Assembly: GCF_000016065.1 (NCBI RefSeq)
Contig: NC_009092.1
Coordinates: forward strand, 2,604,001 to 2,668,000
DNA: 64,000 bases
From: Shewanella loihica PV-4
GTDB taxonomy: Bacteria; Pseudomonadota; Gammaproteobacteria; Enterobacterales; Shewanellaceae
Direction of reading: 5' to 3'
Numbering within the stretch: the stretch's first letter is position 1; the number at the start of each line of letters is the position of its first letter. Made by a program: the position numbers and the translations under genes. Positions 57,851 to 64,000 of this stretch are shown here, one piece after another. The notes under the pieces were generated by a model, which saw only the letters and a program-made list of their open reading frames with translations, did not search any database and had not been told where the DNA came from.

Positions 57851-58063
57851 CTCCCCTATTCGCTCTTAATTAGTCGCCAAATTAGTCATCAGATGTTGAT
57901 AATCAAAGACAAATTAGCTTATTTAATCGAATAACTGAAGGTAATAGCTGGGAAATTGCGGGAAAGAGGTAAAGAAAAAGCAAAGAAAAAGGCCACAGCA
58001 GCGGGAGCGTGCGCTGTGGCCCTTGTCCCCAGACTCGGCACTGGGCGCCCTAGCCTAACTTGG

Positions 58064-58444
58064 CTAACGTTTCATCTTAGGGTACTTAAACTCATGACAC
58101 TGGTTACAGTACACCTTGCTCTCCTTGTGCTCCTGATGACAGTAGGTACAAGGAAGATCGCTGCCATAGTGCAGGCTGTCGTGGGGATTCGGCTCTACGC
58201 TGTGGCCTGCCCCCTCGGGGCGCTTGGTAAGCTCGGCCATCTCGGCCGCCGTGCCGTGGCAAGACTCGCAGGCACTCATCTTAGGTATGCTCTTGCGTTT
58301 CGCCTCGCCATGACAGGCGCTGCACTCCACCTTGCCCTGCTCGTTGGTCATGATCTCTTTATGATAATCTTTCAGCTTCATGGCCTGTGCACCCGGCGCG
58401 CTCAGTAGCGCCGCCAAACAGAGGGCCGATAATACTCTTAACAT
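58064..58444 (-). CDS. Tetraheme cytochrome c (flavocytochrome partner)
   Basis: 126 residues with a signal peptide at 1-21 (LCLAALLSAPGAQA). Four haem-binding motifs: CSACH, CESCH, CTYCH and CNQCH, plus extra histidines suited to bis-His ligation (DYHKEI, GHSVEPNPHDSLHYG). It matches the tetraheme domain of Shewanella flavocytochrome c, here as a separate periplasmic protein that would pass electrons to the flavoprotein encoded at 60207-61766. Last gene of the operon, 67 bases after the lyase gene. Confidence 0.93.
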   Translation of the reverse strand: MLRVLSALCLAALLSAPGAQAMKLKDYHKEIMTNEQGKVECSACHGEAKRKSIPKMSACESCHGTAAEMAELTKRPEGAGHSVEPNPHDSLHYGSDLPCTYCHQEHKESKVYCNQCHEFKYPKMKR

Positions 58445-58511
58445 CTTGAATCCTTAATGTGGGGCGACCAGCGCCCCAGCTAATAACTTGCTTAGGCTAA
58501 TGCCCAAGCCA

Positions 58512-60170
58512 TCAGTACTTGACGATGAAGTCGTGTGACGCCTGAATGTCTGGCGTAAACGGACGGTCAAGCTCGACGAAAGGCACCTGTTGACGATACG
58601 CCTGGTACATGGCCTGGGTCGCCTTACCTAGCTTAAGGTCGGCGTTGGCGGCCTTGCGCAGGTCGATCGCCTGGGTAGAGTGCAACAACTCCAGGCCATA
58701 CATGGTGTTGATGTTGTCGACTATTTGGATCAGGTTGTCGCTCGCCAGCTTAAGGTTGGTGAAGGTGTCTTCGATGTTACCGGCGATCTGAATGCCGTCG
58801 AATGACACTGGCGTCGCCAACATCTTGTTACGCACCTGCATGTCCACGAAGGTCTTCTGGATGGCGCCGAATGCGTGACCATTGTTACCCGGCGCGCTCA
58901 AAAAGCGTGGCAGATGGGTAAAGTGATCATCCGACAGGTGAATGGTACGCATGGCGCTGTTGTGAGACACATGAGTCAGGGCCACGCTCAGTTGCTGCAC
59001 CGCCAGAGCCACGGGGAGCGGCTCGAAGTTGGTGGTTGGGAACACACCGCCCTTGCCTTCTACCAGATACTTGGCCACCTGAGAGTTTTCGGCGTACTGC
59101 TTGCTCGCGCCCAGGATCACCCCAGGGTTATCGTCTGAGTGGTTGATCTGAATGTCGATCACCTGGCCCAGATCCGACAGCGCCTTCTGGGCACTCGCCA
59201 GGGTATAGGCGGTGGTGCGGTAGCTCAGCGGGTCTTGCAGCGGACGCTCGCTGTTGAGATCCCACAGGTAGCTGCCAGAGAGTGAGCCCAAGATATCCTC
59301 TGTGGTCGCCTTCAGATAAGGGAAAGGACGAATGTCATTGGTCTGTGGCAGGAATGGCGCCACGTTACCGTTTAGCCCTTCCAGGCTCAGGCCAAACACG
59401 GTTGGCGAGACCTCTAGCAGATGCTCGGCGTCCTGATAACCTTGCATGGCGTAGGCCACGGCGACCGAGTTGTTCGACAGGATAGAGAGCGCATCTTTAC
59501 CGATAGGCTTAAGCGGCTTCACGCCTGCCTTGCTCATCGCCTCGACACTGCTCATGCGCTTGCCTTGATAGAACACATCCCACTCGCCGATCATCGCCAG
59601 TCCCACGTGGGATGCCAGCAGAATGTCCGCCTCGCCTACTGTACCCAGCGATGGAATCACAGGGGTGATCCCTTGGTTCAGGTAGGCCTGATAGATCTCG
59701 GCCACATAGGGCTGCACGCCGGTGTGACCAGACAAGATGGTGTTCAGGCGAACCGCCAGGGCGACACGGGTGAGTCTTACCGGCATCGGCTCGCCAACGC
59801 CCGCGCTGTGTGCTCTTAGGGTGCTGTAGTTAAAGGATTTAGAGGCCGCCATCACTTCGGCGCTTAGCTCGCCATTGGCATCGAACAGCTTGTGGTCCTT
59901 GTTCAGGCCAACGCCTACTGTGAGACCATACACAGGCTTACCCAGACGCGCCGCTTCCATCAGCAGATCGTGAGCCTTCACCAAAGCGGAGGCCGCCTGA
60001 GGCGCGATATCTACCTTAGCGCCATCGGCGATTGCCCAGGCCTGAGCCTGAGTCAGATGCTGACCGTCGAGTACCACGGTATCGCTTGCCATAGCGGCGC
60101 CAGAGGTCATCGCCAAGGCGCTAGTTGCCAGGGCTGTAGTTGCCAACAGAGTATTTACTTTTTTCATCAT
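58512..60170 (-). CDS. Exported ammonia-lyase homologue without the MIO triad
   Basis: 552 residues of the histidine/phenylalanine ammonia-lyase fold, with a Sec signal (MMKKVNTLLATTALATSALA, cleavage near AMA-SD). Conserved: KPVYGLTVGVGLNKDH (the YG.NTGFG tyrosine region), ILSNNSVAVAYAM, LQDPLSYRTTAY and NHSDDNPG. At the MIO site, canonical G-ASG-DL reads VGEADILL, so Ala-Ser-Gly is Glu-Ala-Asp. Normal MIO catalysis is therefore not expected. Start set at the first of two ATGs behind AAGGA. It lies between the reductase (36 bases upstream) and the cytochrome. Possible roles: isomerase, binding protein or a novel lyase. Confidence 0.85.
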   Translation of the reverse strand: MMKKVNTLLATTALATSALAMTSGAAMASDTVVLDGQHLTQAQAWAIADGAKVDIAPQAASALVKAHDLLMEAARLGKPVYGLTVGVGLNKDHKLFDANGELSAEVMAASKSFNYSTLRAHSAGVGEPMPVRLTRVALAVRLNTILSGHTGVQPYVAEIYQAYLNQGITPVIPSLGTVGEADILLASHVGLAMIGEWDVFYQGKRMSSVEAMSKAGVKPLKPIGKDALSILSNNSVAVAYAMQGYQDAEHLLEVSPTVFGLSLEGLNGNVAPFLPQTNDIRPFPYLKATTEDILGSLSGSYLWDLNSERPLQDPLSYRTTAYTLASAQKALSDLGQVIDIQINHSDDNPGVILGASKQYAENSQVAKYLVEGKGGVFPTTNFEPLPVALAVQQLSVALTHVSHNSAMRTIHLSDDHFTHLPRFLSAPGNNGHAFGAIQKTFVDMQVRNKMLATPVSFDGIQIAGNIEDTFTNLKLASDNLIQIVDNINTMYGLELLHSTQAIDLRKAANADLKLGKATQAMYQAYRQQVPFVELDRPFTPDIQASHDFIVKY

Positions 60171-60206
60171 CAATTCCTTAATATTTTTCTCGGCTGCACA
60201 CCTGTG

Positions 60207-61766
60207 CTAAGCCTGTTTTAATTCGATTGCCGCGCTCGCCGCGCAGATACGACCGGCGTTTCTGCCCGTCACCACACCTTCTGCCACGGCGCAGGCGCCG
60301 AGACGGCTCGCCCCATGGATGCCACCCGTCGCCTCACCGGCGGCATACAGGCCGTCGATCGGCTCGTTGCTCACCAGGTGCAGCACCTGAGACTGAGTAT
60401 TCACCTTCACGCCGCCCATGCAGTAGTGCACCTTGGGCCACATACGCACGCCATACCAAGGGCCCTCTTCCAGCGCCATGGCCTTCTGCATGGGGCGACC
60501 AAACTCCTTGTCTTCGCCGGCTTTTACCGCGTCGTTCCAGCGCGCCACCTGGGCTTTCAATGCCTTGGCGGGGATCTGATACAGGGCCGCGAGTTCTTCT
60601 AATGTGTCCGCCTTCTGGATCACCTTGTACTTAAGACCCCACTCCAATGTCTGGGCCTGGGCCGCGCCCTTGGCATTGGTAAAGCCCACGGGATAGACGG
60701 GATTACCCTGGTCATCACGGCGGGTCATGATGGCGTCGGCGCGGGCCTTACGGTCAGCCAGCTCGTTGAAGAAACGCTCGCCGGTACGCACATCCACCAC
60801 TATGCCGCTGGGATAAGTAGCGATGGTGTTGAACTGAGAGGCGGTGCCGAAGCCCTTCTCGTCCGGTGATGCCCAGGGACCGAGCTGGATCTGATCCAGA
60901 TGGATCGGGTTGGCGCCGATCAACATCATCTGCTTGAGGGCCTCAGAGGTCGCGCCGGGATGGTTGGTCGAGTCGAGATCGCCATTTAATTCAGGCTGCT
61001 GCATCTGACGATACTCGAGATCGCGAGAGAAGCCGCCGGTGGCCATGATCACCCCTTTGCGCGCGCCGATAAGCCGCATTTTACCCGTGCGCTCCTGCGG
61101 GAAATAATAGCCATCGCGAACTTGGACACCGATCACGCGACCGGCCGGATCTTTCACGAAAGATTCGAGCTTGGTCTGATTTCGCATCTCGATACCATGT
61201 TGCTTAGCCGCCTTGATCAGGGGACGAATGATGCCGGCGCCAGAGCTCTGCACCGTCTGCAGCACACGTGGCAGCGAGTGACCACCGAAGTGCTGCACAA
61301 AAGGCTTCCACTCGACGCCATAGGCCTCCAGCCACTGACAGGACTCGGCGGTGCCGTTACACACCAGCTTGAGCATCTCGACATCGTTCATGCCGCGACC
61401 CGCCTTGAGCATGTCGGCCACCATGGTATCGACCGAATCCTTGATCCCCTCCTTGGCCTGCAACTTAGAACCGGCCACCGCCATGGCGCCGCCATTGATG
61501 GTGGAGTTGCCGCCAAACACGGGCATCTTGTCGATCACCATGACGCTGGCACCGGCCTCTTTGGCCTGCAGCGCCGCCGACATACCGGCGAAACCGCTGC
61601 CGATCACCAAGACATCGACTATCTCGTCAAAATGGGGCGGTTTATCGCCACTACACTCGGCCGCCTGGGCGCTCATGGCGCCCAGTCCCGCCACACTGAC
61701 GGCCATCGCGGCGCCGCCTTTTAACAGCTGGCGACGACCCGGGCTTATCAGATCTTTCTGTTTCAT
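60207..61766 (-). CDS. Tat-exported flavoprotein reductase (urocanate/fumarate reductase family)
   Basis: 519 residues from ATG 61766 with AAGGA upstream. Tat signal SPGRRQLLKGGAAMAVSVAG at about 8-27. FAD domain: VLVIGSGFAGMSAALQAKEAG and GGNSTINGGAMAV. Active-site comparison with Shewanella Fcc3: proton-donor Arg kept in ADRKARADAI, VHYCMGG keeps one His, and HGASRLGACAV keeps the substrate Arg. The fumarate-binding His in YIQAHPT reads QIQLGPW. So a non-fumarate 2-enoate, such as urocanate or a cinnamate, is likelier. No FMN-binding domain as in UrdA; the cytochrome is a separate gene. Confidence 0.88.
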   Translation of the reverse strand: MKQKDLISPGRRQLLKGGAAMAVSVAGLGAMSAQAAECSGDKPPHFDEIVDVLVIGSGFAGMSAALQAKEAGASVMVIDKMPVFGGNSTINGGAMAVAGSKLQAKEGIKDSVDTMVADMLKAGRGMNDVEMLKLVCNGTAESCQWLEAYGVEWKPFVQHFGGHSLPRVLQTVQSSGAGIIRPLIKAAKQHGIEMRNQTKLESFVKDPAGRVIGVQVRDGYYFPQERTGKMRLIGARKGVIMATGGFSRDLEYRQMQQPELNGDLDSTNHPGATSEALKQMMLIGANPIHLDQIQLGPWASPDEKGFGTASQFNTIATYPSGIVVDVRTGERFFNELADRKARADAIMTRRDDQGNPVYPVGFTNAKGAAQAQTLEWGLKYKVIQKADTLEELAALYQIPAKALKAQVARWNDAVKAGEDKEFGRPMQKAMALEEGPWYGVRMWPKVHYCMGGVKVNTQSQVLHLVSNEPIDGLYAAGEATGGIHGASRLGACAVAEGVVTGRNAGRICAASAAIELKQA

Positions 61767-61837: not shown

Positions 61838-61856
61838 ATTGCACCCGGCATGCCAA
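61838..61856 (-). promoter_or_regulatory. Sigma-54 promoter of the reductase operon
   Basis: TTGGCATGCCGGGTGCAAT on the minus strand fits YTGGCACG-N4-TTGCW, with the GG and GC elements exactly 10 bases apart. It lies about 72 bases before the reductase start, opposite a sigma-54 activator gene. Confidence 0.85.
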
Positions 61857-61906: not shown

Positions 61907-61947
61907 ATCACGAAATATGATGATCTACAATCACGAAACTTCGTGAT
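61907..61947. promoter_or_regulatory. Tandem operator-like sites (probable activator UAS)
   Basis: A perfect inverted repeat ATCACGAA-AC-TTCGTGAT (61930-61947), and a degenerate second copy starting ATCACGAA at 61907, with centres 23 bp apart. They lie about 50-110 bases upstream of the sigma-54 promoter, as for enhancer sites, and end 16 bases before the regulator start, so autoregulation is possible. Confidence 0.75.
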
Positions 61948-61962
61948 CACCGTGACATTTCA

Positions 61963-63486
61963 ATGCAAAAACAATTCTATTTCGAAGCCACCCAGCGACT
62001 GTGCAGCAGCCTGGAGCTGGAGCAGTCCCTGCGGGCCTACTTCGAATATGTCAGGCAGCACCTGCCTATCGACGGCATCTACCTCAACATCTACCGCCCC
62101 GAATATGGTGACATCCAGTTTCTGGCCCATGTGGATGAGGCGCAGACCACGGCGCTGAATAAACAGGTGAAGATCTCCGCCGAGATGGAGGCCCTGCTGA
62201 GCCAGCCCGACCGTCCGGTGATCCGCATCATCAACGATCTCGAGCACGATCAGGTGACAGGCTTCGTGGCGCCTCAGGTGATCCCCAATATCCAGTCGGT
62301 GATTCTGCTGCGCATGCTGAGCGGTAACACCCATCTGGGGGTGGTGGGTTTCTATGCCAAGCAGAAGGCGCAGTTTTGTCATCGCCACGCCGAGCTTATC
62401 GAGCCCCACAAGGATACCCTGTCGCTAATCACCGCGTTTAATCTCAAGGGGCGTAACCTGCTCAGGGCCAATCAGGCGCTCACCCAACAAAACCGCCTAC
62501 TCAAACAGGCCTTCAACCCCTGCGGGGTGATAGGTGCTGACTCTGGCCTTAAGCGGGTGATGACCCAGGTGGAGGCGATCGCCAAGCTGCATACCAGCGT
62601 GTTGATCCTGGGGGAAACCGGCTGTGGTAAGGAGGTGATTGCCAACGCCGTTCACTGCAAGTCACAGCGGGCCGACAAGCCCTTCATCAAGGTCAACTGC
62701 GGCGCCATCCCAGAAAGCCTCATCGACTCTGAGCTGTTTGGCTATGAGAAAGGCGCCTTCACCGGCGCCGAGCATCGCAAGGCAGGTTTCTTCGAACAGG
62801 CCAACGGCGGCACCATCTTCTTAGACGAGATCGGCGAACTGCCCCTGTCGGTACAGGTGCGGCTGCTGCGGGTGCTGCAGAACGGCACCATCACCCGGGT
62901 GGGCGGTTTCGATGCCATCAACTTGGATATTCGGGTGATCGCGGCCACCCACAGAAACCTGCAGGCCATGGTGAAGAAGCAGACCTTTCGTGAAGATCTC
63001 TGGTACCGCCTGGCAGTCTTTCCTATCGAGATCCCTTCGCTGCGTCAACGCCGCTCGGATATTCCCCTGCTGGTGCAGCACTTTATCGAGGTGCTGGCGG
63101 CCAAGTTTAATCTGGACAAGCTCCCCAGGGTCAGCAGTGAACAACTTGACAGTCTGAATCACTACCATTGGCCGGGCAACGTGCGTGAGCTGATCAACGT
63201 GCTGGAGCGGGCGATGATCGAGGCCCCAGAGGGGCCGCTAAACTTCAACCTTACTCAGGTGGACAAGGTGGAGCCCGCGGCCAGCGGCAAACATGAGACC
63301 ATCATTATCGATCCCAGCCACGCCAGCGATAAACTGGTGCCCCTGGATGTGATGGTGAGTAAGTATATCGCCCATGCGATGCGGATCACCGGCGGTAAAC
63401 TCTATGGGCCGGGCGGCGCCGCCGAGATGCTGGACATCAACCCCAACACACTGCGCAGCAAGATGAAGAAGCTGGGGCTGTGCTAA
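61963..63486 (+). CDS. Sigma-54-dependent transcriptional activator
   Basis: 507-residue enhancer-binding protein. N-terminal GAF-like sensor (about 1-170), then an AAA+ domain at about 185-420: Walker A GETGCGKE, the sigma-54 contact loop GAFTGAEH, FLDEIGELPLSVQVRLLRVLQ, and RRSDIPLLVQHF, and HYHWPGNVRELINVLERAM. The C-terminus is a Fis-type helix-turn-helix (GGAAEMLDINPNTLRSKMKKLGL). No receiver domain, so a small-molecule ligand is likely the signal, plausibly the reductase substrate. Divergent from the operon it probably activates. No clear ribosome-binding site was seen at this ATG. Confidence 0.94.
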   Translation: MQKQFYFEATQRLCSSLELEQSLRAYFEYVRQHLPIDGIYLNIYRPEYGDIQFLAHVDEAQTTALNKQVKISAEMEALLSQPDRPVIRIINDLEHDQVTGFVAPQVIPNIQSVILLRMLSGNTHLGVVGFYAKQKAQFCHRHAELIEPHKDTLSLITAFNLKGRNLLRANQALTQQNRLLKQAFNPCGVIGADSGLKRVMTQVEAIAKLHTSVLILGETGCGKEVIANAVHCKSQRADKPFIKVNCGAIPESLIDSELFGYEKGAFTGAEHRKAGFFEQANGGTIFLDEIGELPLSVQVRLLRVLQNGTITRVGGFDAINLDIRVIAATHRNLQAMVKKQTFREDLWYRLAVFPIEIPSLRQRRSDIPLLVQHFIEVLAAKFNLDKLPRVSSEQLDSLNHYHWPGNVRELINVLERAMIEAPEGPLNFNLTQVDKVEPAASGKHETIIIDPSHASDKLVPLDVMVSKYIAHAMRITGGKLYGPGGAAEMLDINPNTLRSKMKKLGLC

Positions 63487-63623: not shown

Positions 63624-64000
63624 CTAGAAGAAGTAGCGGATACCGACGGCGTAGCTGTTGTCTTGTGCCGCCTCGAAACCTTTGTCATCCATGTCGCTGA
63701 AGTCGAACTTGGCTTCGGCAAACATCACGGTATCTCGGCTGTAGCGATAGTGCAGGCCTAGCACGGCAAACTGACGTGTCCAGTTACCCTTGATGGCCGT
63801 AGTCTCGTCGGTATCCAGATCCTGATAAGAGATCAGGAAGCTAGGCACGAAACCATTGTCATAGTGGTAGGCCACCAGGAACTCGGCGCCGGTAGAGTCA
63901 TAAAGCTGACCGGCCACCAATTCGTTTTGCTTGCTCTGATGGGCGTTGAAACCGACATAGAGGCCCTTGGCGTAGCGGCCAGGCGCATACTGGTAGAAGG
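63624..64000 (-). CDS. Outer-membrane porin, C-terminal part
   Basis: The frame runs off the window edge; about 125 C-terminal residues are present, with alternating beta-strand pattern (YAKGLYVGFNAHQSKQ, FLVAYHYDNGFVPSFLISYQ, FAVLGLHYRYSRDTVMFAEAKFDF) and the porin ending YAVGIRYFF with terminal Phe. This fits the Gram-negative general porin (OmpC/OmpU-like) family. Start lies outside the window. Confidence 0.88.
   Translation of the reverse strand, partial: FYQYAPGRYAKGLYVGFNAHQSKQNELVAGQLYDSTGAEFLVAYHYDNGFVPSFLISYQDLDTDETTAIKGNWTRQFAVLGLHYRYSRDTVMFAEAKFDFSDMDDKGFEAAQDNSYAVGIRYFF

Follow-up and report, generated by a model that had tools for sequence, protein, structure and literature searches.

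A predicted operon for the anaerobic respiration of ergothioneine in Shewanella loihica, combining an exported lyase, a flavoprotein reductase and a tetraheme cytochrome

The stretch of Shewanella loihica PV-4 DNA analysed here (the window; 64,000 nucleotides, positions 2,604,001 to 2,668,000 of the forward strand of NC_009092.1, assembly GCF_000016065.1) carries three consecutive genes, P0002, P0001 and P0003, which lie on one strand with spacings of 33 and 67 bases and are proposed here to serve the anaerobic respiration of ergothioneine, a histidine betaine bearing a thione. The genome is a single contig of 4.6 Mb, and the locus has near-identical counterparts in other Shewanella, including a 98% match in Shewanella insulae. 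P0001 has the fold of the histidine, phenylalanine and tyrosine ammonia-lyases (HAL/PAL/TAL), whose characterised enzymes need a 4-methylideneimidazole-5-one (MIO) group to eliminate ammonia. The features of the operon are as follows.

60207..61766, minus strand: P0002, a flavin adenine dinucleotide (FAD) flavoprotein reductase exported by twin-arginine translocation (Tat), with the twin-arginine motif RRQLLK and an FAD_binding_2 match of 263.6 bits
58512..60173, minus strand: P0001, a Sec-exported HAL-fold protein without MIO, with a Sec-like leader and a Lyase_aromatic match of 394.6 bits (cut-off 27.3)
58064..58444, minus strand: P0003, a Sec-exported small tetraheme cytochrome c, with a Cytochrom_c3_2 match of 57 bits and four CXXCH motifs
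57986..58021, minus strand: a stem-loop and T-tract resembling an intrinsic terminator, 3' of the cytochrome gene (fold -23.6 kcal/mol, z -5.0)

An earlier note on this DNA had described an operon of a Tat flavoprotein, a Sec HAL/PAL-fold protein and a tetraheme cytochrome, and gene order, leaders and Pfam matches confirm that description; the leaders, the twin-arginine motif and the CXXCH counts were judged by eye from the translations. P0001 has three candidate start codons, TTG at 60173, ATG at 60170 and ATG at 60167. A simple consensus scan, whose loop limit is 8 nucleotides, reported no terminator at 57986..58021.

Among solved structures, P0001 is most similar to the ergothionase of Treponema denticola (6s7j/6s7q; 298.6 bits vs 170.1 for the best HutH chain), with 38% identity (196 identical residues in 521 aligned positions). 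Both proteins have the HAL fold and both lack MIO: the VG-ASG-D of MIO enzymes aligns with VG-EA-D in P0001, a one-residue deletion that bears out the earlier claim of a missing MIO triad (VGEADILL), and ergothionase shares this GE(A/G)D deletion. Two further replacements are common to them. Ser233 of P0001 (Ser194 in ergothionase) stands in the column of the MIO-site Asn, which is Asn196 in the HutH of the same genome, and Leu316 (Leu277 in ergothionase) replaces the Tyr of the QDPYS motif, Tyr281 of HutH; we take the Asn and the Tyr to be active-site residues of MIO enzymes. The earlier note had counted the catalytic Asn and the QDPLSYR block as kept, which the alignment contradicts, as the two Asn residues of the SNNS motif sit one and two columns past the MIO-site column. 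Its claim of a kept Tyr-loop stands (Tyr82), and His122, Arg319, Asn349 and Glu468 are also retained, Tyr82 and Arg319 being shared with both MIO enzymes of the genome and Glu468 with HutH. Lys440 of P0001 corresponds to ergothionase Lys383 (chain numbering), a position held by Val or Ile in the two MIO enzymes, and Tyr82 and Glu468 align with Tyr53 and Glu411 of the ergothionase chain. Tyr53, a Lys and Glu411 are presumably the catalytic residues of ergothionase.

P0001 is thus set apart from the MIO ammonia-lyases by the absence of the Ala-Ser-Gly triad, the MIO-site Asn and the QDPYS Tyr, and it scores 252.9 bits against the histidine ammonia-lyase model TIGR01225, under the curated cut-off of 539.15. 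In this family, MIO is required to expel free ammonia. Trimethylamine can depart without the electrophilic help that ammonia requires, which would be why MIO is dispensable in the ergothionase family. Ergothionase is described as lacking MIO in the accessible part of PMC13405746. The idea that the MIO-less P0001 is dead or of unknown chemistry was rejected, since the ergothionase match and the shared residues account for the loss.

P0002 exceeds the cut-off of the TIGR01813 model (495.6 bits vs 285.45) and falls in the flavocytochrome-c/UrdA/FccA superfamily, scoring 237 bits against UrdA and 247 bits against FccA-type proteins, with no heme or flavin mononucleotide (FMN) domain of its own. 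UrdA (Shewanella oneidensis SO_4620), for which an imidazole acrylate likewise serves as periplasmic acceptor, shares with P0002 the FAD/clamp superfamily and the catalytic Arg/His/Arg set; Arg339, His447 and Arg488 of P0002 align with UrdA Arg411, His520 and Arg560. Unlike UrdA, P0002 lacks both the N-terminal FMN domain, only about 50 residues preceding its FAD domain, and the urocanate pocket residues, as the columns of UrdA Glu177, Tyr373 and Asp388 are occupied by Ala94, Gly296 and Gln311. The roles of these UrdA residues in the pocket, and the occurrence of Gln or Asn at position 388 in some UrdAs (Gln in some gut UrdAs), follow the accessible part of PMC7921117. P0002 also lacks the substrate His of FccA (Gly296 at the Tyr373 column) and, having no CXXCH motif, the tetraheme domain that is fused to FccA; its ring pocket resembles neither that of UrdA nor that of FccA. 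Because the catalytic Arg/His/Arg set is kept while the UrdA pocket and the FccA His are changed, P0002 probably reduces enoates and has a ring pocket of its own kind; this pocket is consistent with thiourocanate as substrate, without being proof of it, and P0002 is proposed to be a thiourocanate reductase.

A scan of named genomes returned 333 relatives of the lyase, and the counts that follow come from the best 78 loci of these, which carry 80 lyases. Among Lys440 (Lys-type) lyases at least 50% identical to P0001, 52 of 53 are accompanied, no more than three genes away, by a reductase of P0002 type and a multiheme cytochrome, the sole unpaired one being that of L092, and a homologue of P0003 itself is present in 50 of the 52 paired loci. 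The paired lyases occur in Shewanella, Ferrimonas, Enterobacterales and Sutterellaceae. The P0002-type pocket is found in 57 of 58 reductase rows of Lys-type loci; these 57 include three repeat genomes and L089, which also has an Asp440 (D-type) lyase nearby, and the exception, L076_r1, is an additional, unlike flavoprotein from another part of the locus, which is left out of the reductase counts together with the misaligned L093_r2. The remaining lyases at or above 50% identity comprise four with Asp440, beside UrdA-type reductases, and three Val440 lyases of Enterococcus that have no reductase. Two D-type lyases fall below 50%: that of L093 has a UrdA-type reductase next to it, and the reductase closest to L089_1 is of P0002 type and belongs to the Lys-type lyase of the locus.

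Of the 18 Lys-type lyases less than 50% identical to P0001, 17 lack a reductase, and the one that has a reductase is the second lyase of L068. The earlier note had named EAD proteins without reductase neighbours as evidence against its reading; such a pattern holds in this more distant group and fails among the closer relatives. Eight of the 17 reductase-less loci (L098, L099, L103 and L107-L111, four of them near-identical and of Pseudochrobactrum type) encode the full set of ergothioneine-catabolism homologues, namely those of the hydratase for thiourocanate, the desulfurase for thiohydantoin, ErtD and ErtE. Wherever NCBIfam equivalog models were applied, genes near lyases with this residue set scored above the cut-off: in Paracoccus for thiourocanate hydratase (1045.7 bits vs 930) and thiohydantoin desulfurase (551.3 vs 440), in Agrobacterium for the hydratase (1044 bits), and in Pseudochrobactrum for ErtD (742.4 vs 600) and ErtE (587.8 vs 520). 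The hydratase homologues of the eight loci score 792-1117 bits, as against 498 for the host genome's own ordinary urocanase beside HutH. A Burkholderia arboris locus likewise has hydratase, desulfurase and ErtD homologues near a Lys-type lyase with the same residue set, and Burkholderia is the genus of a characterised ergothionase according to the accessible part of PMC13405746. Phe424 and Ala464 accompany Lys440 in all 40 Lys-type rows of a 62-row alignment and in the Burkholderia lyase, and P0001 is nested among the Lys-type lyases in the tree, the more careful version of which leaves out L002, P0106, L092_1 and P0038. Because ergothioneine-catabolism genes stand beside these relatives, the lyases with the P0001 residue set are read, by context, as ergothionases. 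Lyases in the catabolic (ert) clusters presumably carry out the same first step as P0001. These clusters then hydrate and degrade thiourocanate; the reductase-paired loci instead hold a reductase and a cytochrome, and those that were fetched showed no hydratase, desulfurase, ErtD or ErtE homologue. The other nine reductase-less loci, five of them cyanobacterial and one from Microscilla, have neither a reductase nor the ert set.

Some individual loci call for comment. L068 of Ferrimonas senticii has two unlike lyases (VGEAD and VGTAD) and one reductase in a single operon. L067, named Marinobacter nauticus, resembles Ferrimonas balearica, and L110, named Bacillus subtilis, resembles Pseudochrobactrum; both are probably mislabelled or contaminated. 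L125, L127 and L131 seem to come from genomes already represented by L062, L095 and L054. The Lys-type lyases of cyanobacteria and Microscilla (L094, L096, L102 and L104-L106) have N-terminal extensions, and the absence of reductase and ert genes from the fetched loci contrasts with the synthesis of ergothioneine by cyanobacteria. Homologues from Enterococcus and Escherichia (L077, L079, L090, P0070 and P0092) have no visible leader and a hydrophobic residue at position 440, and the Enterococcus L077 lyase adjoins genes for a coenzyme A-transferase, a major facilitator superfamily transporter and a nitronate-monooxygenase-like protein. On pSymA of Sinorhizobium meliloti, L137 encodes a MIO-less lyase with Tyr424, Ala440 and Ala464, for which the records of some strains use the name hutH or histidine ammonia-lyase; none of the four ergothioneine-catabolism proteins has a match within the 15.5 kb fetched, and Sinorhizobium accounts for 26 of the 32 plasmid records with a relative of the lyase. 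Escherichia sp. MOD1-EC7003 carries a Lys-type operon (L083) to which nothing in the E. coli collection comes close, and this operon therefore does not explain the old report of an E. coli ergothionase cited in the accessible part of PMC13405746.

Within the genus, an intact lyase orthologue is present in 41 of 129 genomes, the host genome included, besides one broken copy and one remnant. Reductase orthologues (at least 76% identity) occur in 42 of the 129, exactly the genomes with a lyase orthologue (41 intact and one broken, the two lists being matched by eye), and no genome among the 129 has the orthologous reductase without the lyase. The ratio of nonsynonymous to synonymous substitution rates (dN/dS) of the lyase is 0.02-0.15 in the five of ten comparisons whose dS was unsaturated; the gene is under purifying selection. 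A decaying paralogue, which the earlier note had considered as grounds for abandoning its reading, was rejected on this selection and on the scarcity of damaged copies. Of the paralogue matches in this survey, 7 of 11 in the 39-44% class and 6 of 9 in the 34-38% class were fetched. Beyond the host genome's own, two relatives were found among 369 class-level genomes and none among 398 phylum-level genomes at E <= 1e-75, and the distribution is therefore patchy.

Upstream of the reductase gene lie a divergent regulator gene, two candidate control elements and part of a porin gene.

61840..61856, minus strand: a sigma-54 (-24/-12) promoter-like element, TTGGCATGCCGGGTGCA, 74-90 nucleotides 5' of the reductase start, found as a pattern with one mismatch allowed
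61930..61947, no strand assigned: an inverted repeat, ATCACGAA-GT-TTCGTGAT, with an extra TTCGTGAT half-site at 61907-61914
61963..63486, plus strand: a sigma-54 activator with about 190 N-terminal residues without a Pfam match, followed by an AAA+ domain and an HTH_8 match just under the cut-off
63624..63998, minus strand: the 3' part of an outer-membrane porin gene beside the activator, cut by the window end, 97% identical to L034:3437-4597 (a Porin_1 match)

Of the 52 paired named loci, 50 encode an activator homologue no more than four genes from the lyase and the remaining two are cut; outside Shewanella and Ferrimonas, the similarity of these homologues is only 26-45%. The -24/-12 pattern, counted without a shuffled control, is present in 30 of 33 Shewanella rows and three of six Sutterellaceae rows. 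It is missing from all seven Ferrimonas/Paraferrimonas-type rows and both Enterobacterales rows with an intergenic region (L069, with 3 nucleotides between the genes, was left out), and sigma-54 control may therefore be local. The inverted repeat is a possible binding site for the activator; of 41 orthologous intergenic regions, a few of them reaching about 1 kb, 33 contain TTCGTGA or TCACGAA, again without a shuffled control. The porin has homologues of 78% identity or more in 21 of the 29 named Shewanella loci, and of 28-32% in three others. In L050-L053 and L055, a gene of 378-403 residues without an assigned family is inserted between activator and reductase, a place that is empty in other Shewanella, and the sigma-54 element precedes it; the 386-residue gene of the L050 type was rejected as a porin, there being no Pfam match in L050 and no BLAST match to the porin in any of the five loci.

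Taken together, these observations favour an operon for the anaerobic respiration of ergothioneine, under sigma-54 control in Shewanella, a reading to which we assign a probability of roughly 78%. Gene order, leaders, homology, the residues shared with ergothionase, the conserved gene pairing and the promoter-like element are observed, and the substrate, the reaction, the residue roles and the flow of electrons are what we infer from them. Sigma-54 and the divergent activator would turn the operon on, and ergothioneine would cross the outer membrane into the periplasm, perhaps through the neighbouring porin. There, the exported lyase, a proposed periplasmic ergothionase, would eliminate trimethylamine to leave thiourocanate, with Tyr82 acting as base and Lys440 and Glu468 at the ring and the acid/base site, by analogy with ergothionase. 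P0002 would then reduce the double bond of thiourocanate, the terminal electron acceptor, to thio-imidazole propionate, with electrons that leave the quinol pool and are delivered by the tetraheme cytochrome P0003, the likely donor to P0002. Placing the lyase outside the inner membrane would spare an uptake system. In the Enterobacterales locus L071, a heptaheme/cytochrome b561 protein is also encoded, which is plausibly a quinol dehydrogenase. The earlier suggestion of an exported MIO-free protein that prepares an enoate for a periplasmic reductase gains support from this context; its alternatives of an isomerase or binding role, or of a lyase acting by an unknown mechanism, do not, ergothionase being a known case of MIO-independent elimination.

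Several observations weigh against this assignment. P0001 lies far in the tree from the T. denticola ergothionase, whose branch is long, and the deep branches have weak support of 63-88. No NCBIfam ergothionase model is matched by P0001 or by six relatives, and the assignment therefore comes without confirmation from a curated model. Many lyase-less genomes have paralogues of the reductase at 44-49% identity, some match at E <= 1e-130 being present in 91 of the 129, and this type of reductase is therefore not tied to lyases in general.

Alternatively, the substrate of the lyase could be a relative of ergothioneine (S-methyl-ergothioneine, the sulfonate or a different thio-imidazole betaine), with the reductase acting on the matching acrylate under the same respiratory logic. 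The T. denticola enzyme also takes ergothioneine sulfonate, separate S-methyl thiourocanate models exist in NCBIfam, and a bacterial sulfonate pathway appears in the reference list of PMC13405746, a source accessible in part. However, the catabolic neighbours of Lys-type relatives score over the plain thiourocanate cut-offs and under the S-methyl ones, which makes this reading unlikely, even if the genes scored are neighbours of relatives 47-48% identical to P0001 and not of P0001 itself. A lyase yielding urocanate from hercynine or histidine, with P0002 as a UrdA-like urocanate reductase, is less likely still. P0002 and UrdA do belong to one superfamily, and Gln at 388 is known from some gut UrdAs (accessible part of PMC7921117), but the three exchanged pocket residues disfavour urocanate as the operon's product, Lys440 is absent in 11 of the 11 rows in which the lyase accompanies a reductase with the complete UrdA pocket, and expulsion of free ammonia would need MIO. 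That P0001 is a non-catalytic binding protein or isomerase, as the loss of MIO and of two MIO-enzyme active-site residues might suggest, is the least probable, given that ergothionase, an active enzyme of solved structure, has identical losses and that Tyr82, Lys440, Glu468 and Arg319 are kept under purifying selection.

Ergothioneine respiration may have parallels among lyases without Lys440. Six Shewanella loci (L112-L117) have Asn440 (N-type) lyases and five Sutterellaceae loci (L084, L085, L088, L091 and L093) have D-type ones, and in 11 of 11 rows their reductases match UrdA residue for residue at the 11 positions of the pocket and catalytic set that were checked. A further N-type locus, L118, has a reductase with 10 of the 11 UrdA positions, plus an unlike reductase with a cytochrome. 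At least four genes separate lyase and reductase in L112 and L113, and in L088, L091 and L093 the two are divergent, so that a shared transcript is not required. The N- and D-type lyases do not form one clade (approximately unbiased test, p 4.7e-62). Of 77 positions conserved in at least 39 of the 40 Lys-type lyases, nine differ throughout the N-type rows and three throughout the D-type rows, and all three (Phe424, Lys440 and Ala464) fall within the nine. The chance of such an overlap is 84/73150, about 0.001, by post hoc arithmetic on rows that are not independent within each clade; Lys440 and partner type changed together twice independently, both times in the expected direction, for which a sign test gives p 0.5 and cannot reach significance. 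The simplest reading is that Lys440 and the small Ala464 make room for the sulfur and bind it, and that lyases in which they are missing would give urocanate from hercynine for UrdA-type reductases; the lyases of L112-L118, L084, L085, L088, L091 and L093 are thus predicted to be exported hercynine lyases. L112 and L118 also encode a Tsx-type outer-membrane channel.

A third class, in Shewanella loci L119-L124, has Gln440, the motif SGANDL, EGANDL, MGLNDL or MGINDL, and its own kinds of reductase and small cytochrome in six of six loci; the reductase pocket is unlike those of UrdA, FccA and P0002, which suggests a further substrate. Respiration of aromatic betaines may accordingly be modular, a view we hold at even odds: exported MIO-free trimethylamine lyases would be coupled to matched reductases, the Lys-type with P0002-type reductases for ergothioneine, the N- and D-types with the UrdA pocket for hercynine through urocanate to imidazole propionate, and the third Shewanella class for another betaine.

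Among known systems, the ergothionases of T. denticola and of Burkholderia sp. HME13 represent the lyase activity proposed for P0001, the sequence comparison having been made with the T. denticola chain. P0001 differs from the solved enzyme in belonging to a respiratory operon and in bearing a Sec-like leader, which the solved chain, aligning from residue 31 of P0001 onwards, lacks. The Mrd/Mcc pair of Geobacter sulfurreducens AM-1, likened here by description, also combines a flavin reductase with a separate tetraheme cytochrome in one operon; its substrate is methacrylate, and no lyase is mentioned in the accessible part of PMC4427408. Thiourocanate passed between gut bacteria, from C. symbiosum to B. 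xylanisolvens, supports growth and ATP (adenosine triphosphate) synthesis (Zhou et al. 2025, via the accessible part of PMC13405746). There, the two steps are split between organisms; here, lyase and reductase share one operon and bear export signals. The literature search, which covered titles and abstract openings and left most subscription papers outside its reach, found no paper on the operon among the matches listed and returned none on a hercynine lyase. Ergothionase, enoate-reducing flavoprotein/cytochrome pairs and the feeding of anaerobic gut bacteria by thiourocanate are known; new, as far as that search reached, are the joining of all three in one exported operon, its taxonomic spread and the parallel UrdA-paired lyases.

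A BLAST-based study of 2026 placed ergothionase in only a few bacterial genera, allowing for divergent homologues (accessible part of PMC13405746). An exported, respiratory ergothionase is predicted here in 41 of 129 genomes of the genus, as well as in Ferrimonas, Enterobacterales and Sutterellaceae, where such lyases are annotated as HAL/PAL/TAL family proteins or as aromatic amino acid or histidine ammonia-lyases. Cyanobacteria make ergothioneine and hercynine, according to the accessible part of PMC3826126, and are a plausible marine source of ergothioneine. If the proposal is correct, an antioxidant of dietary and marine origin, from mushrooms and cyanobacteria, would serve as an electron acceptor and a source of trimethylamine through a single operon. 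If the pairing of hercynine lyases with UrdA-type reductases also holds, it would provide a second origin of the diabetes-linked imidazole propionate that bypasses histidine ammonia-lyase, and under the modular reading gut Parasutterella and its relatives could convert dietary hercynine into imidazole propionate with no need for that enzyme.

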